DNA from: a virus
DNA length: 46,788 nucleotides
Strand: one strand, 5' to 3'
IMG/VR virus record: IMGVR_UViG_3300045970_001344
Coordinates: 1-46,788 of that record
Below, piece by piece: positions 1 to 39,839 of this stretch. Both the position numbers and the translations under genes were made by a program. The notes beneath the pieces are model-generated. The model was given only the letters and a program-made list of their open reading frames with translations, was not told the origin of the DNA and searched no databases. Numbering within the stretch: position 1 is the stretch's first letter; every line of letters begins with the position of its first letter.

Positions 1-822
1 ATGAAGCTGAGTGACCTCTTTGAGGATGACGCATTTCCCGATGAGGCGCCACTGGTCCTCACGCTCATCAACAACCTGCTGAAGAAGGGCACTGAGGTCC
101 GCGTCTACTATCGTGGTGATGGTGGATCAATGGTAAACCTGGAGTGGGATCCACCTGCACAGCATGGCGGCAATGGTGCTACATCCTTCAAGCTCGAAGA
201 TGGTCGCTATATGACCATTAGAGATGACAACCTTGATAAGCTGAAGCTCATCAAGTCACGTAGATCTTCATTCAGTGGCGTGAACATGTTTACACTGCGT
301 GCGCCGAATGTTGATGAAGGTCGGACTGGCATGGGGTCTGAGCAGCATCGAAGCACCGTGGTCAGAGAGACCATGGCATGGATCAACATGGTGGATCTTG
401 AGTTCAAGGATCTTATCAAGGGCGCGGGCTGGCGTCTAAGCAAGGCACCAACAGCCGGACTTGACGGCGGCTACTTCGGTGGCACGCTACAGGCTACCGC
501 ATCATCGAAGCGGGCGCTAATATCCCTGCACGAGCAGCGTGAAATGATGATGAAGCTCATCATCAAGAAGCTGCTGCACTACGTCAAGGAAGGTCACCGT
601 GTCTCAGCTACGCCCTATGCCACTCATGCCATGGCCAAGCGCCATCTGACCACCAAGGACACAGTCGCAGATGTACTTGACATGGTAGAGGACCAAGGCT
701 CCTTCATCAGCATGGATGGTGCAAAGTTCGACATGTACTGGCACATCAGCCTGCCGCAAGGTATTCGAGACCGCTATGAAGCTGCTACTCGCAAGCTGAT
801 GGGAGACAGCGATGAAGATTGA
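1..822 (+). CDS. Putative internal virion protein, family A, capsid-targeting-like N-terminus
   Basis: 273 aa, function not recognised. It opens MKLSDLFEDD, the pattern shared by about 17 proteins here; it resembles the T4 internal-protein targeting peptide, which is cut after (L/I)xE, so LFE at residues 6-8 is a candidate cut site. The C-terminal half carries the family A pattern found in the next three genes: a GGYFGGTL-like turn, an ISL..Q.E helix and a final YWHISLP strand. The ATG is the first base of the window, so an upstream start cannot be excluded. The end overlaps the next gene by 11 bp, which suggests translational coupling. Role in the virion is inference. Confidence 0.7.
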   Translation: MKLSDLFEDDAFPDEAPLVLTLINNLLKKGTEVRVYYRGDGGSMVNLEWDPPAQHGGNGATSFKLEDGRYMTIRDDNLDKLKLIKSRRSSFSGVNMFTLRAPNVDEGRTGMGSEQHRSTVVRETMAWINMVDLEFKDLIKGAGWRLSKAPTAGLDGGYFGGTLQATASSKRALISLHEQREMMMKLIIKKLLHYVKEGHRVSATPYATHAMAKRHLTTKDTVADVLDMVEDQGSFISMDGAKFDMYWHISLPQGIRDRYEAATRKLMGDSDED

Positions 823-1282
823 AGACCTCTTCGAAGCCAAGAAGCCATCACCCGACTGGGCACAGAAGGAGCAGGCAGAGTTTGCCACCTTCGTCAAGCA
901 GTTTGGCATGCAGCTGATGACACGTAAGGTAGAGCACCGCGCGCCAGACCAGTGGATGATTGGTGGTGACATCAAAGACACCGACAAGAGCCAGCACATC
1001 TCTCTGCCTATCGAGATGCGCTTCAAGGCACTGAAGAAGGGTCTGTCTCACTACCTGCTTGACAAGGCCAAGGACGCCTACCCTAACCGCTACGTGAAGC
1101 TCATCAGCAACCCGCGGGGCTGGCGCACATCGCCCCACTACATTCAGCATGATGACAGTCCTATCCAGGTGGAGCGCATCGTCGATGATGTCGTGCACCA
1201 AGACAGATACCGCGATCAGAGCTTAAAGCTCGGTCAGTGGACCACCTACGTCCACTGGTCCATCTCGGAGCCAAAGTCATGA
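812..1282 (+). CDS. Putative internal virion protein, family A
   Basis: 156 aa. N-terminus MKIEDLFEAK has the targeting-like motif with a possible LFE|A cut. It shares with its neighbours a WMIGGDI turn, an ISLPIEMRFKALKKGL helix (compare LPFEKRVEQWLK and PFEKRVKDFL in the next two genes) and a terminal YVHWSI strand. It starts inside the preceding gene and its TGA overlaps the next ATG (ATGA). No catalytic motif is visible. Function unknown; a packaged or structural role is inferred from the N-terminus. Confidence 0.7.
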   Translation: MKIEDLFEAKKPSPDWAQKEQAEFATFVKQFGMQLMTRKVEHRAPDQWMIGGDIKDTDKSQHISLPIEMRFKALKKGLSHYLLDKAKDAYPNRYVKLISNPRGWRTSPHYIQHDDSPIQVERIVDDVVHQDRYRDQSLKLGQWTTYVHWSISEPKS

Positions 1283-6145: not shown

Positions 6146-6670
6146 ATGAAGCTTTCCCAACTCTTTGAAGCACCTGCCGATCCTCGCAATCTCCTAAGAG
6201 ATGTAGCGCAGGAGTTGGGGCTGTCAAATCCAGCCTTCTACGACATCGATGACGACACCACTAACGCAGCCGAGGTTCGGGTAGGCATTGATCTGTATCG
6301 ACTACATCAAGATACTGAAGGCTCTGCAGATATCAGCGGTAGATTAAAGGCAATCCATCAGCTGGCAAATCAAGCCAAGTTTCCTGACAACAGTGGTCCC
6401 GAAGCCCTCGAATACTTTGATGGTCAAGACCTTGGTAAGCTACCTCACGTAGCGGCCTTTCATCAAGCGCTCGTGACGCTTAGCAAGGTAGCCGACAAGG
6501 TTCGTGAGAGCGTAGACACCTGCTTCAAGGTCTACTTTCTACTTGGTGCCATCAACACTGCAGCGATCACGACGGTGTCATCAAAGTATGACGCTGATGA
6601 GTTGAAGTATCGTAGCTCCATTGCACGTGCGTGCCTGAAGCAGCTTGGCATCACGCCGAAGGATCTCTGA
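6146..6670 (+). CDS. Putative internal virion protein, family B
   Basis: 174 aa, N-terminus MKLSQLFEAPAD with a possible LFE|A processing site, C-terminal signature ARACLKQLGI. Preceded by its own late promoter, so this gene starts a sub-operon running to 9354. Helical, function unknown. Confidence 0.7.
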   Translation: MKLSQLFEAPADPRNLLRDVAQELGLSNPAFYDIDDDTTNAAEVRVGIDLYRLHQDTEGSADISGRLKAIHQLANQAKFPDNSGPEALEYFDGQDLGKLPHVAAFHQALVTLSKVADKVRESVDTCFKVYFLLGAINTAAITTVSSKYDADELKYRSSIARACLKQLGITPKDL

Positions 6671-7053: not shown

Positions 7054-7663
7054 GTTTCTCAAACTTCTGGAAGCCCAAGGCATCGAGTGGCAGACCATTC
7101 ACAACATGGCCGGCAAGCCAAAGCGCTTCAAGAAGATTGATGGAGACTGGGAGAGCCCATCTCAGGCACGTGCCTGGATGAAGAGCCATGACATCCCCGA
7201 GCCTGCAGTCCGCACCTCACCAGCGCGCCTTGCAAAGGCTGTGGCCAAGTATCCGACCGCTGGCAAGCACCTTGCACTGCAGTGGCTGAAGGACGATGAG
7301 GAGCAGGAGAAGCTTGAGAAGCAGATTGCACGTGACAAGAAGCGCAGTCACCCAACGCCACGTGAGATCTGGGACGAAGTAGAGACTGCTATCGGCAACT
7401 CCTTCCCAGATGGCGACCCTATTGATGCACTCCACCCTTGGATGGAGAAGCATGAGGTCACGATGGATGAGGTCAACGCTGCAGTCAAGCAGAATGTCAT
7501 GGGGCGCGGCAAGGGCAAGAAGAACTATGGCATGTATTACTACCTCGCCGACATGTGGGATGACATGTCTCGTGATCAACTGCATGATGCCAAGAATGGC
7601 CACTATGGTGAGCACTATGATGATCAGTGGTTTGCGCAGGGTAATCCATGGAGATCTCGATGA
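7037..7663 (+). CDS. Putative internal virion protein, Lys-rich
   Basis: 208 aa from the ATG at 7037, giving MLRLTEFLKLLEA, a targeting-like N-terminus with LLE as a possible cut; ATGs at 7028 and 7034 are alternatives and 6914 is unlikely. A basic central stretch (about 90-115, EKQIARDKKRSH) could bind nucleic acid. The start lies within the preceding gene and the end overlaps the next. Function unknown. Confidence 0.6.
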   Translation: MLRLTEFLKLLEAQGIEWQTIHNMAGKPKRFKKIDGDWESPSQARAWMKSHDIPEPAVRTSPARLAKAVAKYPTAGKHLALQWLKDDEEQEKLEKQIARDKKRSHPTPREIWDEVETAIGNSFPDGDPIDALHPWMEKHEVTMDEVNAAVKQNVMGRGKGKKNYGMYYYLADMWDDMSRDQLHDAKNGHYGEHYDDQWFAQGNPWRSR

Positions 7664-8181
7664 GATTGAAGGACTTCCTTGCTGAGAACGACGGCTCAAA
7701 GCTGCAGCAACTGAAGCTGGCTTGCAGGGAGCTGGGCATCACACTGAAGATGCCTTCCAGCGCCTACACTCATGATGAGATGGTCGATAGAGTGGTGAGA
7801 GCAATGAATGCCGCCTTCAAAAAAGATGGCATGGCAGGCATCTACCGCCTCTCCTCTGCACTTCTTAACATCAAGTCACTTGATATTCCAAAGAACTCCT
7901 CTTGGTATCCACTCGCCTCAGTGCAGACAGATGCACCTGACACCATGTGGTCAACAGACCTACTGCAACCACTGGTGCAGGCCTACTCCATCATCAACGC
8001 ACATGCATCAGAGGTGCGGGATGCTGCAAAGATCTACCAAGGCGCCCTCGACGCGCTGCTGACCATCATGAAGGTGGCCAATGGCACCATCGGTGATGCT
8101 GAGAAGGAAAACGCTGCCTATCGCGTCTCCATTGCCAAGGCCAACCTCAAATCACTAGGACTGCGTTTTGAAGCTAACTGA
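7660..8181 (+). CDS. Putative internal virion protein, family B
   Basis: 173 aa. The ATG at 7660 is preferred over 7648: GGAG sits at the right distance, the junction is ATGA, and it exposes MRLKDFLAEN, a targeting-like N-terminus with LAE. Ends with the family B signature IAKANLKSLGL. No catalytic motif. Confidence 0.7.
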   Translation: MRLKDFLAENDGSKLQQLKLACRELGITLKMPSSAYTHDEMVDRVVRAMNAAFKKDGMAGIYRLSSALLNIKSLDIPKNSSWYPLASVQTDAPDTMWSTDLLQPLVQAYSIINAHASEVRDAAKIYQGALDALLTIMKVANGTIGDAEKENAAYRVSIAKANLKSLGLRFEAN

Positions 8182-8815
8182 CATCAGCGCTACTCCCGCA
8201 AGCAAGACAGCTACCAGCAAGCTGGGCAAGCAGACGTCTATGGTCACGGTTGCCGCAGGCAAGAAGCCGCGCCTCGAGCTCGGCGTCATCGGCCTCTCTA
8301 TCGGCCAGACGCAGTCAACTGGCTCTACCTCCCGTGTCAATGAGGCTCAACTCTCAGGGCTGGAGATACTTGAGCTCATCGACCACGTTGGTGAGATGCT
8401 TCGAGAGAATGGTGAAGGCTTTCGGGTCCGCTTTGAGCACCGCTATGGTGAGCAGATGGAGTTTAGCAAGGAGCACGCTGCACTCGATGCCATCAAGATC
8501 GCTCGAATGGGTGACAAAGGCATGCGGGCCAACGCTGCCCTGCAGAAGATTGGCATGTTTGAGCACGACGGTAACCTTCGGCAGGTAGCTGAGATGGCGG
8601 TGAAGATGCAGGAGGAAGAGATCTCCTTCGAGCCACCTATCATGGAGGCCTTCGCAATGGCAGCACGCCTACACGATCAATCCAGCAAGCTGTATGCCTA
8701 CTCCAGCAATGTTAGCAAGATTGTCAACTTCCTCAGTGAGCTGACAGATCTGAAGCCAGCAGACAAGACCTACCCGTTTGCCATGGCTGCGCTCAAGAGA
8801 TTGGGACTACGATGA
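8168..8815 (+). CDS. Putative internal virion protein, family B (TTG start)
   Basis: 215 aa from a TTG at 8168; there is no better start, AGGA lies upstream, and TTG yields MKLTDISATP, fitting the family N-terminus. A Ser/Thr/Ala/Lys-rich segment follows (about 8-35), then helices and the signature AMAALKRLGL. Overlaps both neighbours. Function unknown. Confidence 0.65.
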   Translation: MKLTDISATPASKTATSKLGKQTSMVTVAAGKKPRLELGVIGLSIGQTQSTGSTSRVNEAQLSGLEILELIDHVGEMLRENGEGFRVRFEHRYGEQMEFSKEHAALDAIKIARMGDKGMRANAALQKIGMFEHDGNLRQVAEMAVKMQEEEISFEPPIMEAFAMAARLHDQSSKLYAYSSNVSKIVNFLSELTDLKPADKTYPFAMAALKRLGLR

Positions 8816-9354
8816 GATTTAAGGACTTTGTCACTGAGGCACCGAAAGCTCCAAAGCCCCCGCTCCCTGAAGGCATCAAGCTTATACAGCTGCTGATGGT
8901 TGAAATACACGGTGGTGACGGTGGCAACTACAAGCTGAAGCTGCAGCCAACCCAACAGCAAGAAGCTCTCGATGAAGCTGTCCGCATCATGCGCCGCGTT
9001 ATGGCTGGAGCTGACGGCCCACTGATAAAGGGCATCCTATGGCAGATATCTAATGACCTAAAGGTACTCCGCAAATCACTGCTACCGTTTCCTACCCATG
9101 AAAGTCACATGGATGAGGCGGGTGTATGGATTGAAAACAAGGAGGTTGCCCGCACACTTCAAATTGTTGCAGGTATTCAGCAGGAAGTCGTCAAGAGCCA
9201 TGTCTACATGGAAAACCTCTACGAGCTCCTCTTCGTTCTCGAGTATGTGTATCGTCTCATCGAGGGCCAACCCGTCGGCAACGGCAACGGTAGTCTCGAT
9301 GCCGCTGGACTAACCTTCGCCAAGGCTACTTTCAAGAAGCTCGGGATCCTCTGA
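8812..9354 (+). CDS. Putative internal virion protein, family B
   Basis: 180 aa, ATGA junction with the previous gene. N-terminus MRFKDFVTEAPKAP: the VTE|A context is very like a T4 prohead-protease site. Family B signature FAKATFKKLGIL at the end. Last gene of the operon; a 250-bp regulatory gap follows. Confidence 0.7.
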   Translation: MRFKDFVTEAPKAPKPPLPEGIKLIQLLMVEIHGGDGGNYKLKLQPTQQQEALDEAVRIMRRVMAGADGPLIKGILWQISNDLKVLRKSLLPFPTHESHMDEAGVWIENKEVARTLQIVAGIQQEVVKSHVYMENLYELLFVLEYVYRLIEGQPVGNGNGSLDAAGLTFAKATFKKLGIL

Positions 9355-14101: not shown

Positions 14102-14105
14102 AACA

Positions 14106-14225: not shown

Positions 14226-14235
14226 GTATTTCAAT

Positions 14236-14311: not shown

Positions 14312-14320
14312 TAGAATAAC

Positions 14321-14450: not shown

Positions 14451-14456
14451 AACAAT

Positions 14457-14530
14457 GGGAGTATGACGTAATGGTAGCGTCTCCGGCTTTTACCCGGATG
14501 GCCTGAGTTCGATTCTCAGTGCTCCTACCA
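14457..14530 (+). tRNA. tRNA-Lys (TTT)
   Basis: Acceptor GGGAGTA/TGCTCCT, A73, CCA. Anticodon arm TCCGG-CTTTTAC-CCGGA. Confidence 0.9.
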
Positions 14531-21953: not shown

Positions 21954-22667
21954 ATGAAGACTTCAGAACTGTTCGAACTACGTACAAACGCGCCCCGACA
22001 GAAGACGGAAAACGTCAAGCGCTACGTTGATGCAAGTGATCCAAAGGGTCGCGCTGAGACCGAGTGGACTTCTGGCCAGGGACATATCCCAAACGGCAAG
22101 CACTACAAGTGGGCGAAAGAGAAGGTCTTCGACAAGGACGGCAAGCCCGTCATGTACAAGCCGTACAGCAACGCACACTACCGCCCAGGTGGTGACCATG
22201 GCCCAGCCGCCGTCATGGGCACCGTTGGTGAGTGGCTTTCCAAGATGGGCGCTACCCGTGAGCACCTTGCACCCGCCCTCGAGAAGGTCCGTTCCTCTCC
22301 AGAATACCACCATGCGATGGCCCTCGGCTTCGAGGACAAGACGAGCGTCGGTGATGCCAAGAACGGCACCCTCAATCTGGTCGGCAGCTACGACAATGGC
22401 TTGATGGGCGAGAAGCCAGTCATGGTTCGTCGAAAGATCCTCGCCAATGGCAACATCCGCACGCAGGCTGACGACCATGACCGACACGGTGGACGTGGCA
22501 CGGCCGCCCATCCAGTGACGATTGACACGCACCCGCACATGGATCCGGTTGACCGCATTGTCCACTCAATGCGTGCCTCCATCGAGCGTGTCACTAAGAT
22601 CTACCAGACACAGTCGAAGCATCACTTCGTACGTGCCCTCCAAAAGCACAAGGACAAGACAAAATGA
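21954..22667 (+). CDS. Putative internal virion protein, capsid-targeting-like N-terminus
   Basis: 237 aa. N-terminus MKTSELFELRTN matches the targeting-like motif with LFE as a possible cut. The rest is hydrophilic, basic and His-rich (HYRPGGDHGP, DDHDRHGGRG, HPVTIDTHPHM), which would suit a DNA-associated head protein or a metal-dependent activity. Own late promoter; ATGA overlap with the next gene. Function unknown. Confidence 0.65.
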   Translation: MKTSELFELRTNAPRQKTENVKRYVDASDPKGRAETEWTSGQGHIPNGKHYKWAKEKVFDKDGKPVMYKPYSNAHYRPGGDHGPAAVMGTVGEWLSKMGATREHLAPALEKVRSSPEYHHAMALGFEDKTSVGDAKNGTLNLVGSYDNGLMGEKPVMVRRKILANGNIRTQADDHDRHGGRGTAAHPVTIDTHPHMDPVDRIVHSMRASIERVTKIYQTQSKHHFVRALQKHKDKTK

Positions 22668-23751: not shown

Positions 23752-24495
23752 ATGAAGACAGCGAAAATTTATGTTTTGACAGACCCTCGAGAATCGAGCG
23801 TGATCAAATGTTATGTTGGCAAAAGCATTGAGCCTAAACGTAGATTTAAGAATCACCTGATAGCAAAGGGAGACACCAAACGCGATAGATGGATTAAAAG
23901 TCTACAGCGGCAGAACCTCCTGCCGCTATTGCTAATTCTTGAAGAATGTGCATCTGAGCATCGCAAAGATTGGGAACAGCCGGAACGAAACTGGATTTCT
24001 AAGTACAGGGCTGATGCAAGATATGATGTACTAAATCATACTGGTGGCGGAGAAGGTATTTCAGATATTGATGACGAAACTCGTGGGCGGATGTCTGAAG
24101 CTGCCAAGAAGAGATACATCAATCACAGGGCAATATACGATGCTTCATATGCCAGTGAAGAGCGCAACAGCAAGATATCTGCAAGCCTGACTGGTAAGAA
24201 GCATGAATGGAATAAAGACTTACCGCAAAATCAACCAGGATGGAAACATACCAAAGAAGCAAAGATCGCAATATCATTAGCCGCGACCGCCAACAACTTA
24301 GCAAGGGCTGCGGCTGGAAGATATAAGAAAACTGCTAAACCCAAAATAAAATCATCACGTGATCTAACTGCACCACGTGATGATCTGTGGAAACAACATC
24401 AATCTGAAGCTGCCACTCTTAGGTGGCAACGTTATCGCCAAAGGAAAGAAAATGAGCAGCGTGTACATCAATCATGCGAAGTCGATCTCGGCTAA
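23752..24495 (+). CDS. GIY-YIG homing endonuclease
   Basis: 247 aa. GIY-YIG core: KIYVLTDP then KCYVGKSIEPKRRFKNH, WI.SL, LEEC.SEH and the catalytic E of WEQPERNWI. A NUMOD3-like DNA-binding region follows (GKKHEWNKDLPQNQPGWKHT). AT-rich compared with the TROVE gene. It lies between the structured RNA and the TROVE gene and its last 44 bp overlap the TROVE start, so it appears to have inserted at this locus. Confidence 0.85.
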   Translation: MKTAKIYVLTDPRESSVIKCYVGKSIEPKRRFKNHLIAKGDTKRDRWIKSLQRQNLLPLLLILEECASEHRKDWEQPERNWISKYRADARYDVLNHTGGGEGISDIDDETRGRMSEAAKKRYINHRAIYDASYASEERNSKISASLTGKKHEWNKDLPQNQPGWKHTKEAKIAISLAATANNLARAAAGRYKKTAKPKIKSSRDLTAPRDDLWKQHQSEAATLRWQRYRQRKENEQRVHQSCEVDLG

Positions 24496-30156: not shown

Positions 30157-30323
30157 TCAACAACCACGTCGAGGTCTATCCGCTCCGTGCGTTGTGGATT
30201 GTTCCTATCGTCTTGTTGAGTGGTTTCATCAATGACGTCATACTGTCCACGGCCTTTGCCTTTGCCATGGGCTTCGTCACATCCAAATTGTTCCCAGTCG
30301 TAGTTCGCAAGGAGACCAAGTGA
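30153..30323 (+). CDS. Small membrane protein
   Basis: 56 aa from the ATG at 30153 (overlaps the DHFR stop). Two closely spaced hydrophobic stretches (ALWIVPIVLLSGFI, STAFAFAMGFVTSKLF). Sits directly before the bactofilin gene, to which it is coupled by GTGA, so it could anchor that protein; inference. Confidence 0.6.
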   Translation: MINNHVEVYPLRALWIVPIVLLSGFINDVILSTAFAFAMGFVTSKLFPVVVRKETK

Positions 30324-30691
30324 AGAACCCCTTCAAGTCGCAAGGCTTTGACAGCATTATCGGGCCCAGCACCACCATCGTGGGAGCAGTCGATGTCTAT
30401 GGCACCATGATGGTCGATGGCAAGATCGTCGGCACCGAGATCTCTGGCAAGGATGGCACCGTTTTCGTGAACGGCTCCGTTGATGTCGAGATCATCCGCC
30501 TGGCCAACCTAACCATCTGTGGTGTGGTCAGTGTCAAGGAGGTCTTCGTGACAGGAGTTCTGGCTGTGAAGAAGGGTGCAGCCCTCGAAGCTACCAACAT
30601 CCACTACACCACGCTCGTTATTGAGCCCGGGGCGGCGATTACGGGTAATCTGCAGCGACTGGATCAATCTACAGCTGCTTCTGCCGCGTAA
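30320..30691 (+). CDS. Bactofilin
   Basis: 123 aa from a GTG with GGAG upstream. Bactofilin (DUF583) beta-helix: SIIGPSTTIVGAVDVYGTMMVDGKI, then repeated V.V.G.V.V..I strands and the end VIEPGAAITGNLQ. Bactofilins polymerise without nucleotide into filaments that act in cell shape and protein localisation. The flanks are short, as in minimal bactofilins. In a phage it might organise infection structures or disturb host shape; a host-derived acquisition is likely. Confidence 0.88.
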   Translation: MKNPFKSQGFDSIIGPSTTIVGAVDVYGTMMVDGKIVGTEISGKDGTVFVNGSVDVEIIRLANLTICGVVSVKEVFVTGVLAVKKGAALEATNIHYTTLVIEPGAAITGNLQRLDQSTAASAA

Positions 30692-30730: not shown

Positions 30731-30742
30731 ACATAAAATAGT
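30731..30742 (+). promoter_or_regulatory. Possible promoter upstream of prkA
   Basis: ACATAAAATAG in the 78-bp gap before the ATG at 30770, like the TAAAAT box of the structured-RNA promoter; no clear -35. Confidence 0.35.
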
Positions 30743-30769: not shown

Positions 30770-32725
30770 ATGTCTCTCTCATCCCTGGCCTCTTCCTTCT
30801 CGACAAAATTCGCAAAGCCCCGCGTCATGTCGCTCCTCGAGTATCTCGAGGCCTGCAAATCAAACCCAATGATGTATGCCAATGCTGCCGAGCGGATGGT
30901 AGCAGCCATCGGTAAACCTGAGGTGGTCGATACGAGTGGCGATGCTCGCCTGTCACGCATCCACTCCAACAAGAAGATCCGCGTCTACTCGGCCTTCAAT
31001 GACTTCTTCGGTGCTGAAGAAGCCGTCGAGCGGATTGCCGCCTACTTCCGCAACAGTGCGGCAGGCCTCGAAGAAAGCAAGCAGATCCTGTACCTCAAGG
31101 GCCCAGTCGGCGGCGGCAAGTCCTCACTGGCCGAGCGCGTCAAGGCGCTGATGCAGAAGCTGCCCATCTACGTGCTGTATGACCCGAGCGAGAAGGACCC
31201 TGAGCGCCAGATGTCGCCGGTCCTGGACAGCCCTCTCGGCCTGTTCAACGTGCTCGAGCATGCCGCCACTCTCGAAGCCGATTTTGGCGTCCCGCGCCGC
31301 TATCTGAACACCGTGATGTCAGGCTGGGCACAGGAGAAGCTGAAGGAATTCGAGGGTGATGTCACCAAGTTCAGCGTTATCGAGGTGTACCCGAACAAGG
31401 ACACCCAACTGGGCATCATGAAGGTTGAGCCGGGCGACGAGAACAACCAGGACGTCTCCGTTCTGATCGGCAAGGTCGATCTGCGCAAGCTCGAGAAGTA
31501 CTCGCAGAACCACCCGTACGCCTACAGCTACAGCGGCGGCCTGAACCGCACCAACCAGGGCCTAATGGACTTCGCTGAGATGTTCAAGGCAAACATCAAG
31601 ACCCTGAACCCGCTGCTGATGGCCACGCAGGAACACAACTACCAAGGCACTGAAGCCATCCCCGCGATGCCTTACACCGGCGTCATCCTTGCCCACAGCA
31701 ACGAGGCCGAGTGGTTCAACTTCCGCAACAACAAGACCAACGAGGCCTTCCTCGACCGCGTGTTCATCGTCGACGTGCCGTACTGCCTGCGCACCGATGA
31801 AGAAGTCCGCATCTACGAGAAGATGCTGGCAGGCTCCAGCCTGGCCAAGGCGCCTTGCGCTCCTGGAACGCTGAAGATGCTGGCTCAGTGGTCGATCCTG
31901 ACCCGCCTGAAGGCACACGAGAACTCGACGCCTTGGGCCAAGCTTCGCGTCTACAACGGCGACAACGTGAAGGACACCATCCCGAACGCCAAGCCGCACG
32001 ACGAGTACAAGGACGCCGCCGGCAACGACGAGGGCATGGCCGGCATGTCGACCCGCTTCGCCTTCAAGGTGCTGTCGGCCACGTTCGACCTTCGCCCTGA
32101 AGAGCAGCAAGCCAACCCGATCGATCTGATGTACGTGATCGAAGGCGCAGTCCGCAAGGAAAACCTGCCGCCTGAGACCACCGAGAAGTACCTCGACTAC
32201 ATCAAGTCCAACCTGCAGCCGCGCTACTTCGAGTTTCTTGAGAAGGAACTGCGCACGGCCTACCTCGAGAGCTACCGCTCGTTCGGCCAGAACATGTTCG
32301 AGCGTTACGTCCTCTTCGCTGAAGCCTGGCTGGCGGACGAGCAGTGCCGTGACCCTGAGACCCACGTCCTCCTGGATCGTGACAACCTCAACAAGAAGCT
32401 GGAGGAGATCGAGAAGGCCGCCGGCATCGCCAATGCCAAGGACTTCCGCAATGAGATCGTCCACTACGTGCTGCGCTACAAGGCCAAGCACGAAGGCGTC
32501 TCGCCGGCCTGGGACCAGTACGAGAAGATCAAGACCGTGATCGAGAAGCGCATGTTCTCGGCCACCGAGCAGATCATGCCGGTTATCGCCTTCGGTCCGA
32601 AGCAGGACAAGGACACGCAAGAGAAGCACGACGGCTTTGTCGAGCGCATGGTGGAGAAGGGCTACACCGAGCAGCAGGTCAAGATCCTGGTGTCTTGGTT
32701 TACCAACAACCGCAAGTCGAGCTGA
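30770..32725 (+). CDS. prkA: PrkA/YeaG-type AAA+ serine protein kinase
   Basis: 651 aa, nearly the length of E. coli YeaG (644). N-terminal AAA+ module: Walker A GPVGGGKS (about 110-117), the family-typical MSPVLDSPLGLF, and GGLNRTNQGLMDFAEMFK. C-terminal PrkA region: LNPLLMATQEHNY, FLDRVFIVDVPYCLR, STRFAFKVLSATFD. PrkA homologues act in starvation and sporulation responses together with YeaH and SpoVR (YcgB). All three are present here in the same order. High G+C and clean codon use suggest a long-resident gene. Confidence 0.95.
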   Translation: MSLSSLASSFSTKFAKPRVMSLLEYLEACKSNPMMYANAAERMVAAIGKPEVVDTSGDARLSRIHSNKKIRVYSAFNDFFGAEEAVERIAAYFRNSAAGLEESKQILYLKGPVGGGKSSLAERVKALMQKLPIYVLYDPSEKDPERQMSPVLDSPLGLFNVLEHAATLEADFGVPRRYLNTVMSGWAQEKLKEFEGDVTKFSVIEVYPNKDTQLGIMKVEPGDENNQDVSVLIGKVDLRKLEKYSQNHPYAYSYSGGLNRTNQGLMDFAEMFKANIKTLNPLLMATQEHNYQGTEAIPAMPYTGVILAHSNEAEWFNFRNNKTNEAFLDRVFIVDVPYCLRTDEEVRIYEKMLAGSSLAKAPCAPGTLKMLAQWSILTRLKAHENSTPWAKLRVYNGDNVKDTIPNAKPHDEYKDAAGNDEGMAGMSTRFAFKVLSATFDLRPEEQQANPIDLMYVIEGAVRKENLPPETTEKYLDYIKSNLQPRYFEFLEKELRTAYLESYRSFGQNMFERYVLFAEAWLADEQCRDPETHVLLDRDNLNKKLEEIEKAAGIANAKDFRNEIVHYVLRYKAKHEGVSPAWDQYEKIKTVIEKRMFSATEQIMPVIAFGPKQDKDTQEKHDGFVERMVEKGYTEQQVKILVSWFTNNRKSS

Positions 32726-32727
32726 TC

Positions 32728-32892
32728 ATGATGGCGGCCTTTCTGGCCATCCTGGCCTTCGCGCTGGTCCTCGTTGCTGTAGTGGTGCAGGTTAGCCACT
32801 CCAGCGGTGGGGCTAAGTATGTGACGACGGGGATCTGCATCATCTCAGCACTGGCATTCCTGCTCTACTCGGCCAAGGTCTACACGCCGTGA
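32728..32892 (+). CDS. Small membrane protein, two helices
   Basis: 54 aa from the ATG at 32728, 2 bp after prkA. Hydrophobic helices MAAFLAILAFALVLVAVVV and ITTGICIISALAF-like, short polar turn (HSSGGAKY). Its stop overlaps the GTG of the next gene. Possibly a membrane partner of the PrkA complex; inference. Confidence 0.6.
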   Translation: MMAAFLAILAFALVLVAVVVQVSHSSGGAKYVTTGICIISALAFLLYSAKVYTP

Positions 32893-33443
32893 AGCTTAGA
32901 GATCTCATGCTTTGTAATAGCCACAATGATGGGACAAGATCTCTCTTTGAGAGCATTCTTGTTCCTGAAGTTGAGGCAGCTTTCAAAGATTGGAATAAAT
33001 CTGCCACTGATGCAAAGTGTGTGTTGATAGGAGGCATTGCGCTGTCATTCTATGTCAAACCCCGGATGACTACCGATGCGGATCAGCTCTTCATGTCAGC
33101 GGCAGACATTCCTGCTACAGTGGATGGTTTCAAGCGAACAAGACCGGGTGCATTTATGCACAAGCATACCCATGTAGAGATTGAGGTACTCACGCCATCA
33201 GCCATCAACATGTCCGTCGAGCTCGCCCACGCTATTTTTGATCGCGCGCAGATACATGATGGAATTCGCGTGGCAGAACCGAGTGGTATTGTAGCTGCCA
33301 AACTCGGCCGCTTCAAGCTGCGCGATCAAGCAGATATAGAAGAACTATTGGCGCATTTCAAGATTGATCTTGATCCATATCCACTATCTGCGGCTGAGCT
33401 TGCACGTTACGATCAGCTTCGCACACAACTGAGCAATACATGA
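32889..33443 (+). CDS. Nucleotidyltransferase-like protein between prkA and yeaH
   Basis: 184 aa from a GTG. A GGIALSFYVKPRMTTDAD segment (about 48-65) fits the pol-beta-type GG...T.D.D motif of MNT/AbiEii-like nucleotidyltransferases; the third acidic residue may be in VEIEVL. N-terminus MKLRDLML resembles the capsid-targeting-like peptides, and the first 20 bp nearly match those of the gene at 34807. More AT-rich than its neighbours, so probably a later insertion. Could modify tRNA or protein (AMPylation); not certain. Confidence 0.65.
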   Translation: MKLRDLMLCNSHNDGTRSLFESILVPEVEAAFKDWNKSATDAKCVLIGGIALSFYVKPRMTTDADQLFMSAADIPATVDGFKRTRPGAFMHKHTHVEIEVLTPSAINMSVELAHAIFDRAQIHDGIRVAEPSGIVAAKLGRFKLRDQADIEELLAHFKIDLDPYPLSAAELARYDQLRTQLSNT

Positions 33444-34810
33444 CTGCCAAGCCACCAATCTCCTCGACCTTCATCTTCGTCGATCGACGCAAGACCGGTC
33501 GAGGCAAGTCGCTCAACAACCGTCAGAAGTTGTTGGAGCGCATCAAGGAAAGCATTCGCACTGCCAAGCCCAAGGATATCGATGCGGGTGGTGGCTTGGG
33601 TGCTCAGTCAGCTTCTTCAAAGAACCTGATCAACCCCGTCAAGATCGCGCGCAGCGCACTGCACGAGCCGACCTTTCACTACGACAGCCGTACTGGTGAG
33701 CGTGAGGTCATCCTCATCGGCAACGACCACTGGGAGCGGGGCGACAAGTTTCCAACAAGCAGTGGTGGCAAGGACGGCGAAGGTCGTGGCAAGGGTGAGG
33801 GCAACGGCCCAGGTGAAGATGGTGAAGACGACTTCATCATCAACATCTCACGCACTGAGTTCTTCGACGTCTTCTTTGAGGACTGTGAACTGCCTGACAT
33901 GAAGGAGACCTCCGAGAAGGAGCTTCCTGAGGCAATCTGGAAGCCAGCCGGTTTCCAGAAGGAAGGCAACGCTGCGCAGCTGTCGGTGATCCGCTCATAT
34001 CGCAACTCCATTGGCCGCCGACGCGCGCTCACCGCCGATGCGCGTGCTGAGCTGGAGGAGATGGAGAAGATACGCGATGAGGCGCAGAAGCGACTTGACC
34101 ACAATCCTCTGGATGCTTCTGCCAATGCTCGCTGGAAAGTGGCAATTGCCCGTATCGAGGAGCTGAAAAAGCAGATCGCTGCTACGCCGTTCTTCGAGAA
34201 GCTGGATCTTCGCTACCGCAAATCGGAGCGGGTTCAGGTGAAGTCAGCCGATGCCGTGTTGGTCATGGTGATGGACATCTCTGGCTCGATGGACGAGGAC
34301 AAGAAGCGCGCAGCCCGCAAGTTCTTCTCGCTACAGTATGCCTTCATCAAGCGCAAGTATCCCAACACAGATCTGGTCTTCATCGCGCACACCGACACCG
34401 CCGAGGAGATGAGTGAGGAAGACTTCTTCACCACTCAGAAGTCTGGCGGCACCATCGTCTCACCATCGCTTGAGCTGGCCAATAGTATCATCAGCACACG
34501 CTATGATCCTGACCAGACCAACATCTATCTCTCCTACGCTGGCGACGGCGACAACTGGGAAAGTGACAATGCCAAGGTGATGGAAGAGCTCGAGGGCAAG
34601 GGCCTTCTATCGAAGCTGCGGCACGCCGTGTATGTTCAGGTCGGACAGAGCTACACATCAGGTCTCTACGGCAGCGGAAACAGTCTCTGGAATGTCATGC
34701 AGTCGGTGGCGAAGACCAATCCGAAGATGCATGTTATCAAGGTCGTCGATGACAGCGAGGTATTTTCCTCCTTCAAGACAATCTACGGCAACAAGAAGGT
34801 CAAGAAGTGA
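33440..34810 (+). CDS. yeaH: YeaH/DUF444 von Willebrand A protein
   Basis: 456 aa, slightly longer than E. coli YeaH (427). SSTFIFVDRRKTGRGKSLNNRQ at the N-terminus is typical (IDRR...G+...NR..+). A Gly/Asp/Glu-rich region at about 105-140 precedes a C-terminal VWA domain with MIDAS DISGSMDE (about 278), a T in the loop, and DGDNW. Acts with PrkA in E. coli stress adaptation by an unresolved mechanism. ATGA overlap upstream, GTGA downstream. Confidence 0.93.
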   Translation: MTAKPPISSTFIFVDRRKTGRGKSLNNRQKLLERIKESIRTAKPKDIDAGGGLGAQSASSKNLINPVKIARSALHEPTFHYDSRTGEREVILIGNDHWERGDKFPTSSGGKDGEGRGKGEGNGPGEDGEDDFIINISRTEFFDVFFEDCELPDMKETSEKELPEAIWKPAGFQKEGNAAQLSVIRSYRNSIGRRRALTADARAELEEMEKIRDEAQKRLDHNPLDASANARWKVAIARIEELKKQIAATPFFEKLDLRYRKSERVQVKSADAVLVMVMDISGSMDEDKKRAARKFFSLQYAFIKRKYPNTDLVFIAHTDTAEEMSEEDFFTTQKSGGTIVSPSLELANSIISTRYDPDQTNIYLSYAGDGDNWESDNAKVMEELEGKGLLSKLRHAVYVQVGQSYTSGLYGSGNSLWNVMQSVAKTNPKMHVIKVVDDSEVFSSFKTIYGNKKVKK

Positions 34811-35406
34811 AGCTTAAAGATCTTCATGAGATGGCAGTGCTCTATAGCCCTGGATTTCATGTGACTTCTGAGCAATGGAAAGAACACTGCGCTGAACAAG
34901 CACAGGCCGTTCTTCTCAAAAAGCTGCATGACAATATAGAACTTCGCATGCAAGATGGGAAACATCGCGCGGTGTCGTATTGGGTAGATGGCGTTATGGT
35001 ATCTCTTGCTATTATCCATGATAGGGTGATCGACGGCAAGGAATATCAGGATCTTCTGTTTATTGCATCTGATCCGGATAAAAGGCAAAAAGGTTACGCT
35101 ACCGCGCTACTCTGGGAAATCTTCTGGGCTTTTGATAAACCGTTGTTGATAGGTGGAGCAATATCACCAGAGGGTCAGAAGTTGGTGTTCTCATTCATGA
35201 AGGCACTTGCATCCAGAGAAACAGATGAGCCGAAAATGATTGATGTTTACACCGGTGAGGTGCGTTCATTTGACCAGAAGAAGTATCTTAGAAGGCCTGA
35301 ACTTTCACTTGTTCTAGAATGTTTTGCTTTAGAGGCCTGTAAAATGCCAACAGCAAAACATCCATACTGGCTGCATCAACCGAATTTATTTGAAGGTCAA
35401 CCATGA
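34807..35406 (+). CDS. GNAT-like acetyltransferase between yeaH and spoVR
   Basis: 199 aa from a GTG. ASDPDKRQKGYATALLWEI (about 87-105) fits GNAT motif A, (R/Q)xxGx(G/A), which holds acetyl-CoA; the preceding strand (YQDLLFI) fits too. N-terminus MKLKDLHEM is targeting-like. AT-rich compared with its neighbours, like the gene at 32889, with which it shares the start sequence gtgaagctta.agatct. Substrate unknown; it might modify the system's proteins or a host target. Confidence 0.65.
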   Translation: MKLKDLHEMAVLYSPGFHVTSEQWKEHCAEQAQAVLLKKLHDNIELRMQDGKHRAVSYWVDGVMVSLAIIHDRVIDGKEYQDLLFIASDPDKRQKGYATALLWEIFWAFDKPLLIGGAISPEGQKLVFSFMKALASRETDEPKMIDVYTGEVRSFDQKKYLRRPELSLVLECFALEACKMPTAKHPYWLHQPNLFEGQP

Positions 35407-36884
35407 GCGAACCATTCTACATTACATCACGCACTGATTGGACGCCTGAGCTCATCGAGCAAGCCTACCGCGAGTGCGAGATCATTGCACGCGAGGAGCT
35501 TGAGCTCGACGTCTACCCGAACCAGATCGAGATCATTGGTGCTGAGCAGATGTTGGATGCCTACGCATCCATTGGTCTGCCTGTGCACTACAACCACTGG
35601 TCATTCGGCAAGGAGTTCCTGAAGAACCACAAGGCCTACGAGACAGGTCGTCAGGGTCTGGCCTACGAGATCGTCATCAACAGCGATCCCTGTATCTCCT
35701 ACCTCATGGAGGAGAATGACATGGTGATGCAGACGATGGTGATCGCCCATGCTGCCTTCGGCCACAACACTGTCTTCAAGAACAACATCTGCTTCCAGCA
35801 GTGGACGAACGCTGGCTCGATCATCGACTACATGATCTTCGCCCGTGACTACATCCGCCAGTGCGAGCAGCGCTATGGTGTGGAAGAGGTTGAGCAGGTA
35901 CTCGATGCCGCACACTCACTGGCGGCGCACGGTGTGGACAAGTTCAAGCGGCGTCACCGTCCGAAGATGACCGAGGAAGCACGCCTGAAGAAGCTGATCG
36001 AGGAAGACAATCAGCGGCAGCGTGAGCTCGACGTCATTATGAAGAAGACGAGCACGAACACCGCTGAGGCCGTGACCGAGCACGACGATCACGACGACAT
36101 GGAAGATGAAGAGAACCTGCTCTACTTCATCATGAAGAAGTCGCCGAACCTGGAGCGCTGGAAGCGCGAGATCCTGCGCATCGTCTACAAGACGAACCAG
36201 TACTTCTACCCGCAGGGTCAGACGAAGAACCTCAACGAGGGCATGGCCACCTTCTGTCACTACTACATCATGACCCGACTGGAAGAGAAGGGCATGCTGT
36301 CATCTGATGCCTTCCTCAACTTCCTGGACCACCACGCCGGTGTCATCTTTCAGCCGACCTACCAGAAGCGCTACTACAGCGGCATCAACCCCTACGCACT
36401 CGGCTTTGCCATCTGCCAGGACATCAAGCGCATCTGCACAAACCCGACAGCTGAGGACAAGGAATGGTTTCCCAACCTCATTGGCAAGCGGTGGCAGGAT
36501 GCCGTGAAGGAAGCTGTGTTTGAACACCGCGATGACAGCTTCGTCGCGCAGTACCTGTCACCGAAGGTCATTCGTGATCTGAAGATCTTCAGCGTCGGTC
36601 TGAAGTATGACGGCGACGAGCAGGAGCAGAGTGTGGATGCTGTTGTCACTGAGATCCACGATGAGCTTGGCTACGCAAACATCCGCACCGCCTTGGCACG
36701 ATCGATGGAGCGCATCAACTACGTGCCACAGATCAAGGTGATCGGCGCTGATCTTGAAGGTGACCGCACCCTGAAGCTAAAGTACGAGCCGTACAAGGAT
36801 CGTGGTCTTGAGCTGTCAGATGCCGAGATCGTCACCGACTACATCGACTACTTGTGGGGATACGCTGTCGAGATTGATAGTTGA
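35403..36884 (+). CDS. spoVR: SpoVR/YcgB family protein
   Basis: 493 aa, close to YcgB (510). Family features in order: LDVYPNQIEIIGAEQMLDAY, HWSFGKEF, YEIVINSDPCISYLMEEN, VIAHAAFGHN with a conserved His, ILRIVYKTNQYFYPQGQTK, NEGMATFCHY, GINPYALGF. An acidic linker lies at about 215-240. SpoVR is needed for spore cortex formation in Bacillus; in Gram-negatives it is co-regulated with YeaG/YeaH. Completes the three-gene system. Confidence 0.95.
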   Translation: MSEPFYITSRTDWTPELIEQAYRECEIIAREELELDVYPNQIEIIGAEQMLDAYASIGLPVHYNHWSFGKEFLKNHKAYETGRQGLAYEIVINSDPCISYLMEENDMVMQTMVIAHAAFGHNTVFKNNICFQQWTNAGSIIDYMIFARDYIRQCEQRYGVEEVEQVLDAAHSLAAHGVDKFKRRHRPKMTEEARLKKLIEEDNQRQRELDVIMKKTSTNTAEAVTEHDDHDDMEDEENLLYFIMKKSPNLERWKREILRIVYKTNQYFYPQGQTKNLNEGMATFCHYYIMTRLEEKGMLSSDAFLNFLDHHAGVIFQPTYQKRYYSGINPYALGFAICQDIKRICTNPTAEDKEWFPNLIGKRWQDAVKEAVFEHRDDSFVAQYLSPKVIRDLKIFSVGLKYDGDEQEQSVDAVVTEIHDELGYANIRTALARSMERINYVPQIKVIGADLEGDRTLKLKYEPYKDRGLELSDAEIVTDYIDYLWGYAVEIDS

Positions 36885-37208: not shown

Positions 37209-37737
37209 ACTTCCAGACCTGGGTGTCGTCATTGAACACTTGAATGACTGATGCGCTGTAGTCAAGAGGTTCAAGTGCACCGAGCTCTGCAAAGTACTTG
37301 TAGACGCCTGGGCTTGTTGTGGCTACAGGAAAGAACACCAGCGTCTTGTCATTGATGGTAACGCCATCGATGGTCATTGATCCACCGACACCCCCGACTG
37401 GAATGGTTGTAGACGTTGAGATCATCTTGACAGCCACCAGTGGGCTGTATTCAGACTTTACCTTCCACAGATACGAGGTGCTATCAAGCTCATAGAGAGC
37501 TGATGGCTTGGGAGCATAGAAGGCGTCGTTGATGGGATCGTATGTATAGCCGATGCCGGCGTAGTTCTTTCTTAACGCTATGCCGCCATCGGGGTTACCA
37601 TTTTGATCATAGTGAATGCTGCCCCGCGTGTTATAGGAGGTCTGGACCCAGGTACCAGGCAGGGTGGCGATGAACTCAGCCTCTGCCACGATGACGCGGG
37701 TGACGATACCATTTTCAACTTCAGCGTAGTGTGCCAT
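37171..37737 (-). CDS. Tail-fibre-associated structural protein
   Basis: 188 aa. The start MAHYAEVENGIVTRVIVAE, then WVQTSYNTRG and ALRKNYAGIGYTYD, form a pattern known from structural proteins of T4-like marine phages, where it occurs alone or as a domain of fibre or neck proteins. Start and upstream stop overlap (TAATG), so it is co-translated with the Gly-rich adhesin and expressed with it from the minus-strand late promoter. Confidence 0.75.
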   Translation of the reverse strand: MAHYAEVENGIVTRVIVAEAEFIATLPGTWVQTSYNTRGSIHYDQNGNPDGGIALRKNYAGIGYTYDPINDAFYAPKPSALYELDSTSYLWKVKSEYSPLVAVKMISTSTTIPVGGVGGSMTIDGVTINDKTLVFFPVATTSPGVYKYFAELGALEPLDYSASVIQVFNDDTQVWKFTAGAWVSKPVV

Positions 37738-39839
37738 TACTTGGTTTTCCTAAACAAACCGACAAGGGTGTTCCAATCCATCTTGCTGTAATCGGTGAGA
37801 CCTAAGCCCAGTCCAGAGTTGACAACATAACCATCTACGATGATAGGGGTATCGTTGGTCTGTACCCAGTAGACCTGTGTTTCTGGACCGTCGTTATGAG
37901 CAACCTCTACGGTGGCTTCCTTCCACCCATTCACCGTGGCGAACTCCAGGTTTTCCGTGTCTGTCCACAGTGTGTCGACCGTAGGACCTGCATATCCAAC
38001 TTCAGCGTCGATTTCCCGCTGAAATGCTTCCTTGTTGCCGGTCCACCAGTTCTGCTGGCCTGTAGATTTTCTACGGGTCCAGTGCATGTGGTCGTATGTC
38101 CACCGGTGTGAATCATCATCGGTAAACTTCAACAGGTCTCGTGAGCTGAGCTCAACCGAGTGCCAGTCAATAACGGGTGTAGGTCCGGTGATACCCATGA
38201 CGATGTCACCAACGGCTACCAGCTCGATGGCCTTCTGTGAACCATCGCCCATCATAACCATTGACCCCGCCGGGAAGCAGGTGATTGGTGTTGGGTCAAC
38301 AACATACTCCTGAGAACTCACTGTCGATAATACGACTGTAGAGGAGCTTAGGGGTGTGCCACCAACTGTTGCTGCAATAGTGATGGTGATGGTTGCTAAC
38401 ACTGCATATCGGTCGGAAACGCCATATCTAAAGGCAGGTTGGGGTAGGGGTGTATTTATCAGTGCCCAAGTCTGCCCAGCTGACAGAGGCACCCAGCTAT
38501 TGAAGGTGCCAGAAAAGGAACCTGTCGCGCTACTGCTGTAGGAGGTGACAACAGTAGCGTAGGCGTAGTAGGTGTTACCGATACCCGTTATTGTTGTTGA
38601 GTACCATCTTTGACCCAGCGAATAGGACACCCAGGCGCCGCCTGGCGATGTTACAACAGAAGTGGTACCATTGGAATTCAGCGTTATTCCAGCGGTGACA
38701 GTATTCCCAACATCGGAGTAGTCATTCACTGCCAGTGCCGCGTCATAGTTAGGCACAACCCCATCAACAGTCGGGATAGTTGGGTAGATGATATAGACGA
38801 CACCTGAACCGCCATTGCCACCATTACCGAGGACTGAGTTGTTAGTGCCACCGCCACCACCGCCACCACCTGACTGGGCAACACCACTGGCTCCCGCAAC
38901 GCCCTGGACGCCACCAGCTCCACCACCACCATTACCAGCGCCGCCTGGCGCTAAACTAAATCCCTGACCACCACCCCCACCACCCCCAACTTGAAGGCTG
39001 GTGGCGGTGAATGAGGTACCGTAGGTATGGGTTGTTGCGTTGTACGGATATATGGCAGAGTTGGTAGGTAGAATGATTGTTAATCCAGTGCCGCCTTTTC
39101 CTGGAACCGATTGAATACCTACGTGCATTTCGGTCCATTGCCCAACAGCCGCATACCCACCACCACCACCACCGCTATTGTATTCACCAGCTCCACCACC
39201 GCTGTTGCCCTGACCGCTGGTGCCAGCGCCACCGGCGTGGTTGCCGCTGACGCCGCTGTTGTAGCCGCACCCACCGCCACCTGATCCACCGCCGTGGCCG
39301 AAACCGGTACCGTTCAGGCCGCCACCACCTCCTCCACCAACAGCAATCAGAGTGCCGAAGGTAGTGGATGTGCCGTTAGTACCATCCCCGCCTGAAGCAC
39401 CGGCGCCACCAGCGCCAATGTTAACCGACACGGAGGCACCCGGTGTAACGGTATAGGCAGTGCTATACAGTATGCCACCCGCGCCACCACCACCACCGCC
39501 ATCAGCTGGTCCAGCGTAGCCACCACCGCCACCGCCACCTACAACGAGAACCCGCACCGAGGTAATACCTGTCGGTACTACCCAGGTACCACCTGTAGTG
39601 ATCTGAACAATGGAGACCGATGTAGCGCCGTAGAAGTTAGCAATCGATATTGTGCCAGCCGATGGAATAGCAACTTGAGTTGAACCGCCGGTAGGATATC
39701 CGACTGTGCCTGCAGGCACATAAGACCCACCAGCATAGTACTCCGAGAGCTGGGTGCCGGGTGGCAGGCTATTACCGCCAAACTCTGTTTGGATTTCTTG
39801 TAGACTAAGTGAGCCGGTGCCGAATGTTCGTAGTGTCAT
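37737..39839 (-). CDS. Gly-rich tail adhesin with C-terminal Hint (intein-like) domain
   Basis: 700 aa. The N-terminal 60 residues (LRTFGTGSLSLQEIQTEFGG) look like a fibre attachment module. Residues about 95-340 consist of Gly-rich blocks (GGGGGGG, GGAG) of the kind that form polyglycine sandwiches in T-even gp38-type adhesins. Residues about 535-680 form a Hint domain: CFPAGSMVMMGDGSQKAIE, VAVGDIVMG, and VDGYVVNSG at the C-terminal end with Asn-Ser where inteins splice; the usual penultimate His is Val. This suggests self-cleavage or splicing of the adhesin. Confidence 0.82.
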   Translation of the reverse strand: MTLRTFGTGSLSLQEIQTEFGGNSLPPGTQLSEYYAGGSYVPAGTVGYPTGGSTQVAIPSAGTISIANFYGATSVSIVQITTGGTWVVPTGITSVRVLVVGGGGGGGYAGPADGGGGGGAGGILYSTAYTVTPGASVSVNIGAGGAGASGGDGTNGTSTTFGTLIAVGGGGGGGLNGTGFGHGGGSGGGGCGYNSGVSGNHAGGAGTSGQGNSGGGAGEYNSGGGGGGYAAVGQWTEMHVGIQSVPGKGGTGLTIILPTNSAIYPYNATTHTYGTSFTATSLQVGGGGGGGQGFSLAPGGAGNGGGGAGGVQGVAGASGVAQSGGGGGGGGTNNSVLGNGGNGGSGVVYIIYPTIPTVDGVVPNYDAALAVNDYSDVGNTVTAGITLNSNGTTSVVTSPGGAWVSYSLGQRWYSTTITGIGNTYYAYATVVTSYSSSATGSFSGTFNSWVPLSAGQTWALINTPLPQPAFRYGVSDRYAVLATITITIAATVGGTPLSSSTVVLSTVSSQEYVVDPTPITCFPAGSMVMMGDGSQKAIELVAVGDIVMGITGPTPVIDWHSVELSSRDLLKFTDDDSHRWTYDHMHWTRRKSTGQQNWWTGNKEAFQREIDAEVGYAGPTVDTLWTDTENLEFATVNGWKEATVEVAHNDGPETQVYWVQTNDTPIIVDGYVVNSGLGLGLTDYSKMDWNTLVGLFRKTK

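Follow-up and report, generated by a model that had tools for sequence, protein, structure and literature searches.

The virus record IMGVR_UViG_3300045970_001344 is 46.8 kb long (46,788 nucleotides, analysed as a whole and referred to as the window) and carries the genes for PrkA, YeaH and SpoVR on one strand and in this order. PrkA is a YeaG-type AAA+ ATPase/kinase and YeaH a DUF444 protein with a vWA domain; together with SpoVR, their genes are called the trio in the following. The region 30770-36884 comprises six open reading frames (ORFs) at the places that a first-pass annotation of the same DNA had given, and the trio is interrupted twice: a small membrane protein (TM) and a nucleotidyltransferase-like protein (NT) are encoded between PrkA and YeaH, and a GNAT-like protein between YeaH and SpoVR (Table 1).

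The trio proteins and their gene borders

The window PrkA reaches 517 bits with PF08298 (cut-off 25) and 202 bits with PF06798, lies above the NCBIfam equivalog cut-off of PRK15455 (976.9 vs 576 bits) and is 57% identical to E. coli PrkA (YeaG). Its Walker A motif GPVGGGKSS (residues 111-119) and K433 are invariant in ten aligned rows, of which nine are phage PrkA proteins and one is E. coli YeaG. K433 is the equivalent of E. coli K426, the residue exchanged in the K426A variant that has been used as a kinase-domain mutant in that organism (PMC10954441). YeaH (376 bits with PF04285, cut-off 27) remains below the equivalog cut-off of the PRK05325 models (373.4 vs 396 bits) and is a family member outside the equivalog range. 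SpoVR (481 vs 27 bits with PF04293, 48 vs 27.6 bits with PF24755) likewise stays under the equivalog cut-off of PRK11767 (647.5 vs 679 bits). In 23 aligned rows that include E. coli and a huge phage, the vWA metal site DxSxS of YeaH (D279/S281/S283) and residues H116, H121, N278-E279-G280 and H286 of SpoVR are invariant. As judged from these scores and residues, the trio is intact and there is no sign of decay in PrkA, YeaH or SpoVR.

PrkA and TM are separated by a gap of 2 bp and the other four borders are 4-bp stop/start overlaps, GTGA for TM/NT and YeaH/GNAT-like and ATGA for NT/YeaH and GNAT-like/SpoVR, so that each cassette is placed precisely where neighbouring genes are coupled. The Pfam scores and the reading of the borders thereby bear out the earlier view that the three genes are full length, in bacterial order and tightly coupled. 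The two helices of TM were read by eye from the 54-residue sequence; its copy in the related locus L002 is 51-56% identical.

Table 1. Coordinates of the trio region, of leader-bearing genes in the window and of a second nucleotidyltransferase-like family in related loci
Feature	Position	Strand	Basis and remarks
Bactofilin-like gene	30320..30691	+	PF04519 E 2e-9; upstream of trio
ATAAAATA, variant late-promoter-like element of clade	30733..30740	+	37 nt before PrkA start
PrkA (YeaG-type AAA+ ATPase/kinase), 651 aa	30770..32725	+	PF08298, PF06798, PRK15455
TM (small membrane protein), 54 aa, two hydrophobic stretches	32728..32892	+	ORF; no family
NT (nucleotidyltransferase-like), 184 aa, leader MKLRDL	32889..33443	+	DUF6036 just under cut-off
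YeaH (DUF444, vWA domain), 456 aa	33440..34810	+	PF04285
GNAT-like protein, 199 aa, leader MKLKDLHE	34807..35406	+	PF00583 at E 0.22 only
SpoVR, 493 aa	35403..36884	+	PF04293, PF24755
Leader gene MKLSDLFE	1..822	+	Leader scan; no family; window edge
Leader gene MKIEDLFE	812..1282	+	Leader scan; no family
Leader gene MKLSQLFE	6146..6670	+	Leader scan; TAAATA 28 nt upstream
Leader gene MRLKDFLAE	7660..8181	+	Leader scan
Leader gene MRFKDFVTE	8812..9354	+	Leader scan
Leader gene MKTSELFE	21954..22667	+	TAAATA 33 nt upstream; conserved leader, divergent body
GS...DxDIA family near trio	L014 9559-10452; L021 12852-13829; L180 about 10170-11054; L011 15745-16641

Descent of the trio in phages and insertions at its junctions

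In IMG/VR the window PrkA as query yielded 28 loci and a PrkA alignment 266 stretches encoding relatives, the best 80 of which were used. Bacterial contigs gave no match with the window PrkA as the lone query and at least 594 PrkA stretches with the alignment, and again the best 80 of these were used. Whether other phages carry the trio, a question already raised by the first-pass annotation, can be answered in the affirmative: it recurs complete and in order in 66 of the best 80 of the 266 viral loci, the window belongs to a phage-only clade, and the junctions hold insertions there, too. Twelve of the other 14 loci run out of sequence, the SpoVR of L170 is present in the longer locus L018, and L193 is without SpoVR and has an Enterobacter-type PrkA. 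Among 50,697 GenBank phage records PrkA was matched in 16, YeaH in 16 and SpoVR in five, the matches being uncultured huge phages, Thermus phages and Enterobacter phage LAU1.

In a quick, unrooted maximum-likelihood tree of PrkA (166 rows) the window falls into a phage-only clade of 29 rows with a support of 100 (30 rows with L183), and further phage-only clades comprise 28, 10, 4 and 3 rows. The labels "bacteria" and "phage" change seven times on this tree, compared with 55.6 times in shuffles. It shows few exchanges between bacteria and phages and a long inheritance of PrkA inside phages; the direction of each exchange is not given by the tree. Seven rows labelled viral are placed among bacteria (L188, L190, L193, L203, L209, L211 and LAU1) and may be host DNA. 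The record of LAU1 (MN688132.1 1-3308, locus L034) opens with yeaG/yeaH, and its PrkA groups with that of E. coli; these two genes are probably flanking host DNA. A T4-type prohead protease was found in eight of ten clade records and a gp23-type capsid protein in six of ten. The 28 relative loci from the single-sequence PrkA scan have similar neighbours: a DHFR match close to the trio in 25 of them, a bactofilin match before PrkA in 17 and an HD gene near the trio in 16. By these sequence comparisons, the trio is inherited in a clade of T4-like jumbo phages and recurs in other phage clades.

The junctions of phage trios gather insertions, whereas those of bacterial trios almost never do. When the window is left out and near-identical contigs are counted separately, gaps of more than 450 bp between PrkA and YeaH number 8 in the 28 loci of the clade, 5 in the 49 remaining viral loci and 0 in the 80 bacterial loci; for the gap between YeaH and SpoVR the corresponding figures are 2/26, 4/40 and 1/76. 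Merging evident contig pairs leaves six and four cases (clade and other viral loci, respectively) for the first junction and one and four for the second. The inserted genes include homing endonucleases (phrog_3339, 2e-97, in L018; phrog_314, 3.5e-31, in L027), GIY-YIG matches below cut-off (L012 and L023), two DNA-methyltransferase-like ORFs recognized by eye in L032 and small membrane proteins in some junctions. Rfam at gathering thresholds gave no match in L018, L032, L027 and L025. The inserts of the window are one case of this general habit of phage trios.

Two loci deserve separate mention. In L018 (10011-15388) endonuclease-like genes for 530-557 residues occupy both trio junctions, the first of them being the phrog_3339 match, and YeaH is split at its linker into two ORFs around an inserted ORF. 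In L032 (16500-18340; LR756504.1, an uncultured huge phage of 636 kb) SpoVR carries an in-frame insert, intein-like by eye, that is positioned at the conserved NEG/C..H site.

The inserted genes, their leader peptide and the late-promoter-like element

NT stays just under the curated cut-off of DUF6036 (E 1.2e-4, 22.4 vs 23.6 bits) and under that of AbiEii (E 0.003, 18.0 vs 22.5 bits; PADLOC AbiEii E 0.04). Both distinct NT sequences keep, by eye, the residues G48G49...D63xD65, corresponding to GG...DxD, which we take to be the catalytic motif of the DUF6036/AbiEii nucleotidyltransferases. The GNAT-like protein reaches 12.3 bits with PF00583, under the cut-off of 20.7 bits (E 0.22). Predicted structures have a mean pLDDT (per-residue confidence) of 36.9 for NT (alignment of two rows) and 40.5 for the GNAT-like protein (single sequence), and the AlphaFold2 model of the latter is too poor for a fold call. 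A phmmer search against solved structures returned nothing for either protein, and PADLOC no convincing defence family.

At the equivalent place, NT is present in L002 (88% identical) and L024, which are equal matches and represent one relative lineage; there is no match in the other 29 records searched. Window and L002 were compared by the Nei-Gojobori method, that is from one pair, and high values of the synonymous distance (dS) are imprecise. With a dS of 1.31, a non-synonymous distance (dN) of 0.069 and a dN/dS of about 0.05, NT is under the strongest constraint of all operon genes (dS/dN 0.60/0.112 for PrkA, 1.16/0.207 for YeaH, 0.91/0.179 for SpoVR and 0.83/0.393 for TM), and its first 36 residues contain one difference. 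The high dS means that NT dates back at least to the split between window and L002, and the low dN that it has a function. The GNAT-like gene occurs in none of the 31 other records, nor was it found in the phage collection or by the IMG/VR scan of close relatives; from its distribution it does look recent or lineage-specific. Bacterial homologues of NT were found in 0 of 10 and 0 of 398 genomes, in searches without a positive control, and matches to the GNAT-like protein in 2 of 398, with per-genome E values of 5e-4 and 0.007 that are near chance over 398 genomes.

The two inserts have a GC content of 0.477 (NT) and 0.438 (GNAT-like) and a GC content at third codon positions (GC3) of 0.43 and 0.40, compared with a median GC3 of 0.66 for 44 window ORFs and a GC3 of 0.84 for PrkA; two further window ORFs, at 23752 (0.37) and 12905 (0.42), are equally low. 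The AT-richness that the first-pass annotation had ascribed to the inserts is thus confirmed, with the addition that they share it with two other ORFs, and "nearly the same 20 bp" at their starts corresponds to 16 identical bases. The placement of a two-helix membrane protein and two enzyme-like genes in the junctions was also correct, while the family calls for the latter two are weaker than claimed. The proposal that both inserts were added later may hold for the GNAT-like gene, not found in relatives, and fails for NT, which is present in L002/L024 with a dS of 1.31 vs 0.60-1.16 for the trio. For NT the opposite case that had been considered, inserts absent from all relatives and functionless beside a silent trio, does not apply either; its first half is true of the GNAT-like gene. 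The suggestion that the inserts are possible cargo is counted as supported.

The first bases of the NT and GNAT-like genes agree at 16 of 18 and also at 16 of 20 positions, giving the peptides MKLRDL and MKLKDL. The conclusion from this shared start that both genes were inserted jointly was considered and rejected, as the leader recurs on unrelated proteins in window and relatives. In fact, the pattern MK[LIV]x[DE]L-FE is found on unrelated, often late phage genes (Table 1). A first regular expression for it was built on window genes and is hence circular. A second one, R2, modelled on genes beside the prohead protease after the window genes had been seen, is partly independent, and its shuffle control, the conservation in the family of the leader gene at 21954 and an association with the late-promoter core TAAATA are further, not fully independent supports. 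With identical or near-identical ORFs merged, 71 window ORFs contain eight R2 matches, where shuffling of the N-termini leads one to expect 1.05; the eight include the GNAT-like gene and one ORF with a doubtful start (6631). Bacterial loci have 9/692 (26 expected), with a Fisher p of 4.7e-5. The counts are 5/56 in head-gene loci (1.75 expected) and 37/462 in other viral loci (12.3 expected; many of these matches are one family in the stricter list). The strongest evidence for the leader is the conservation in the 21954 family: all seven distinct members, that of the window included, keep MKxx[DE]L and a glutamate at residue 8 or 9, the sequence directly behind is poorly alignable, and the other members are only 26-35% identical to the window protein. 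The member in L019 is apparently interrupted.

In its build the leader looks like a capsid-targeting propeptide of the T4 type. As with IPI, IPIII and Alt of T4, proteins that are otherwise unrelated begin here with a short peptide of basic, hydrophobic and acidic residues in turn, and a candidate [LIM]xE site follows (PMC3012670, PMC5694885). Such propeptides have been described as 10-20 residues long, and the proteases of giant phages and T4 as cutting behind glutamate (PMC5694885). The T4 record gives MKTYQEFIAEA as the start of IPIII and MKTFKEFTSTTTPVSTITEA as that of IPI, and several genes beside the protease begin in a similar style (MKLLQEMLGLLEAS). In six of six clade capsid proteins an [LM]xE in the N-terminal region is followed by TA, the alignment (by eye) placing the sites on two sides of a gap. 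For T4 gp23 itself we assume a cut between LTE and A. The predicted cut sites of the pattern [LIM]xE are LHE8 in the GNAT-like protein and LFE21 as the only one in NT. In contrast to T4, the spacing is MKLxDLFE rather than MKTYQEFIAE, and two bearers of the peptide lie in a stress operon. The first regular expression matched 0 of 31 on the T4 pieces, which do not serve as a positive control since T4 spacing differs and the locus edge truncates ipIII.

Leader-like starts were also seen on junction ORFs elsewhere (MKISEILPLFE in L184, MKSFKQHLQE in L227). A second nucleotidyltransferase-like family, with the motif GS...DxDIA by eye, has a T4-like leader in most of its six distinct members (e.g. 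MITFKQFLLE in front of GG); it is located directly behind SpoVR in L014, L021 and L180, and its L014 and L011 members gave no Pfam match. L185, L200, L208 and L216, which belong to another phage clade, have a P-loop gene (PHIFKAVFMAGGPGSGKS) before PrkA, and its products start in a leader-like manner, for instance with MRVNEIIGSVEEG.

Late promoters have been reported as TATAAATA for T4 and NATAAATA for cyanophages (PMC1524935, PMC2984593). The window contains 22 such sites with at most one mismatch vs 7.9 expected, none of them between 23722 and 37540, and TAAATA lies 27-37 nt before the three large minus-strand genes; an S74 tail-spike chaperone domain is encoded by one of them. When the core was sought 25-66 nt before the start, exact TAAATA preceded PrkA in 11 of 23 clade members, and TAAATA or the variant ATARAATA, chosen after looking, in 18 of 23; the element ATAAAATA of the window occupies the position at which relatives have TAAATA or ATAGAATA in front of PrkA. 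Since either form is hardly seen before YeaH (1/23) or SpoVR (0/21; random positions 48/9200), the trio would form one transcription unit. TAAATA precedes PrkA in 0 of 75 bacteria and, in other phage groups, in 2/19, 2/6, 4/4 and 1/5 cases (rows kept, with a start codon found upstream: 75/80 for the bacteria and 19/22, 6/9, 4/4 and 5/5 for the phages). Furthermore, in six of eight loci the start of the prohead protease gene has TAAATA at a distance of no more than 60 nt. With leader genes defined by R2 plus K/R at residue 2, the core precedes 9 of these 22 genes and 76 of the 919 other ORFs, which links the leader class to the late core. Sigma-70 and terminator scans of the trio region gave results at shuffle level. 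From the position of the core, the trio looks late-type in much of the clade, and its timing in the window phage would be late as well. The element before PrkA in relatives argues for a late role, which allows an assembly function, too.

Elsewhere in the window 22 clustered tRNA genes interspersed with several short ORFs (10011-14530), a Ro60/TROVE-vWA protein of the RNA-quality-control type beside this tRNA content (24377-26056; vWA_Ro60 E 1.2e-48), a saccharopine-dehydrogenase-like gene (19395-20459; PF16653 E 1.7e-15) and, on the minus strand, a glycine-rich tail-fibre-like protein with a C-terminal Hint/intein-like stretch by eye (CFPAGSMVMMGDGSQKAIELV; 37737-39839) were observed.

Possible roles of the phage trio and its accessory genes

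The component families of the trio are known from bacteria. The bacterial prkA(yeaG)-yeaH-spoVR operon has the same three families, order and marker residues; it is a three-gene operon in Rhizobium etli (PMC3188799), and in E. coli ycgB is not adjacent to yeaGH. The window trio differs from it by its own phage clade, a late-type element in many members and foreign cassettes in the junctions. PrkA (ORF30) and SpoVR (ORF28) are annotated two genes apart in the 344-kb Ralstonia jumbo phage RsoM2USA, where they are tabulated and not treated as a module (PMC8504454). Thermus phages phiYS40, TMA and phiLo as well as uncultured huge phages have PrkA with a vWA protein, and SpoVR in some of them; the Thermus PrkA proteins are only 25-26% identical and the order in phiLo is vWA-SpoVR-PrkA. 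Jumbo phages of group 2.2 likewise combine an AAA+ ATPase with a vWA partner, in a MoxR-vWA pair (PMC7824862), from which the trio differs by another AAA+ family, the lack of a metallopeptidase fusion and SpoVR as a third gene; "PrkA" does not occur in that paper. Neither the trio as a phage module nor the leader was found described in the open-licence literature, among the matches listed, and relative to the literature searched the phage setting and the leader are new.

YeaG and YeaH together have been described as a metabolic brake in nitrogen-starved E. coli (PMC4664914, PMC10954441), and a takeover of the host starvation response by the phage is plausible by analogy. We tentatively favour, with a probability of roughly 0.4, a late, phage-owned trio operon that would act as a brake on host metabolism and prolong the productive phase, accompanied by leader-tagged accessory enzymes. 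PrkA, its vWA partner YeaH and SpoVR would quiet the metabolism of the already infected cell, at a time that the phage would set through its own, late copy of the brake. The translationally coupled junctions would accept foreign cassettes, NT being an old and strongly selected one and the GNAT-like gene a lineage-specific one, both bearing the phage's own N-terminal leader. As they wear a capsid-targeting-like leader, the two proteins may be accessory enzymes from the head-targeted pool that are probably made together with the trio and act as add-on modifiers; possibly they enter the heads and reach the next cell with the virion. GNATs of jumbo phages have been predicted to modify host proteins (PMC7824862). 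A more elaborate version is distinctly doubtful: here the operon would have two outputs, the trio quieting the present host and the packed NT and GNAT-like proteins modifying targets of the next host before phage genes are read, with the junctions as a landing site at which jumbo phages exchange head-targeted effectors and homing endonucleases.

Several observations weigh against the favoured brake function with its tagged enzymes. The PrkA of one Bacillus has been reported to possess negligible kinase and protease activity in vitro (PMC13001217). The window itself has the late element in its variant form only, another phage clade has TAAATA before PrkA in only 2 of 19 cases, and in six of six loci the major capsid genes are without TAAATA or NATAAATA within 80 nt. 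The excess of R2 matches outside the window is small (19/464 with 10.1 expected in G009, 13/429 with 9.75 expected in other clade loci), NT fails this strict rule with its first LxE ending at residue 21, and the GNAT-like gene is without relative and has a family match at E 0.22 only.

The late timing is accounted for about as well if PrkA, YeaH and SpoVR form a morphogenesis machine that remodels virion proteins late in infection. This explanation, which we regard as possible but rather unlikely, draws on the late core shared by PrkA with protease and leader genes, on the MoxR-vWA chaperone pair that has been proposed to assist virion assembly in jumbo phages of group 2.2 (PMC7824862), on the part that the same genes play in Bacillus sporulation, on the requirement of the AAA+ protein PrkA for sporulation in one Bacillus, again with negligible kinase activity in vitro (PMC13001217), and on the designation of PrkA as an inner spore coat protein (PMC3188799). 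On the other hand, the AAA+ family of PrkA differs from MoxR, many T4-like phages assemble without the trio and its known roles in Proteobacteria are starvation responses (PMC4664914, PMC3188799). A further explanation, an unlikely one, sees in the two inserted genes unrelated moron cargo that came to lie in a tolerant junction by chance, and in their leader a relic of head-protein origin without a role here. Indeed, the junctions are insertion hot spots in which homing endonucleases and further genes are found, the GNAT-like gene occurs in the window phage only and the operon also holds genes without leader, but NT is strongly constrained and has a single difference in its first 36 residues.

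The sub-cut-off match of NT to AbiEii also brings to mind a type IV toxin-antitoxin pair of the AbiE kind, with NT as its toxin. This identity is very improbable and was rejected, given that both the AbiEii and PADLOC matches are weak and that the neighbours of NT, TM and YeaH, are not antitoxin-like, so that no candidate for an AbiE antitoxin gene adjoins it. That the trio is bacterial DNA misplaced in a viral contig would have precedents in LAU1 and L193 with their Enterobacter-type PrkA; host contamination is nevertheless refuted by PrkA clade and synteny, as 28 other contigs of up to 368 kb share the PrkA clade of the window and have similar neighbours (DHFR, bactofilin, HD).

The trio is widely conserved in bacteria and mechanistically unexplained, and a module inherited by phages constitutes a natural experiment on its role. 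Should the leader prove to be a capsid-targeting tag, those among the unknown proteins of these phages that are carried in the virion and injected, otherwise learned by proteomics, could be predicted from a short sequence rule.

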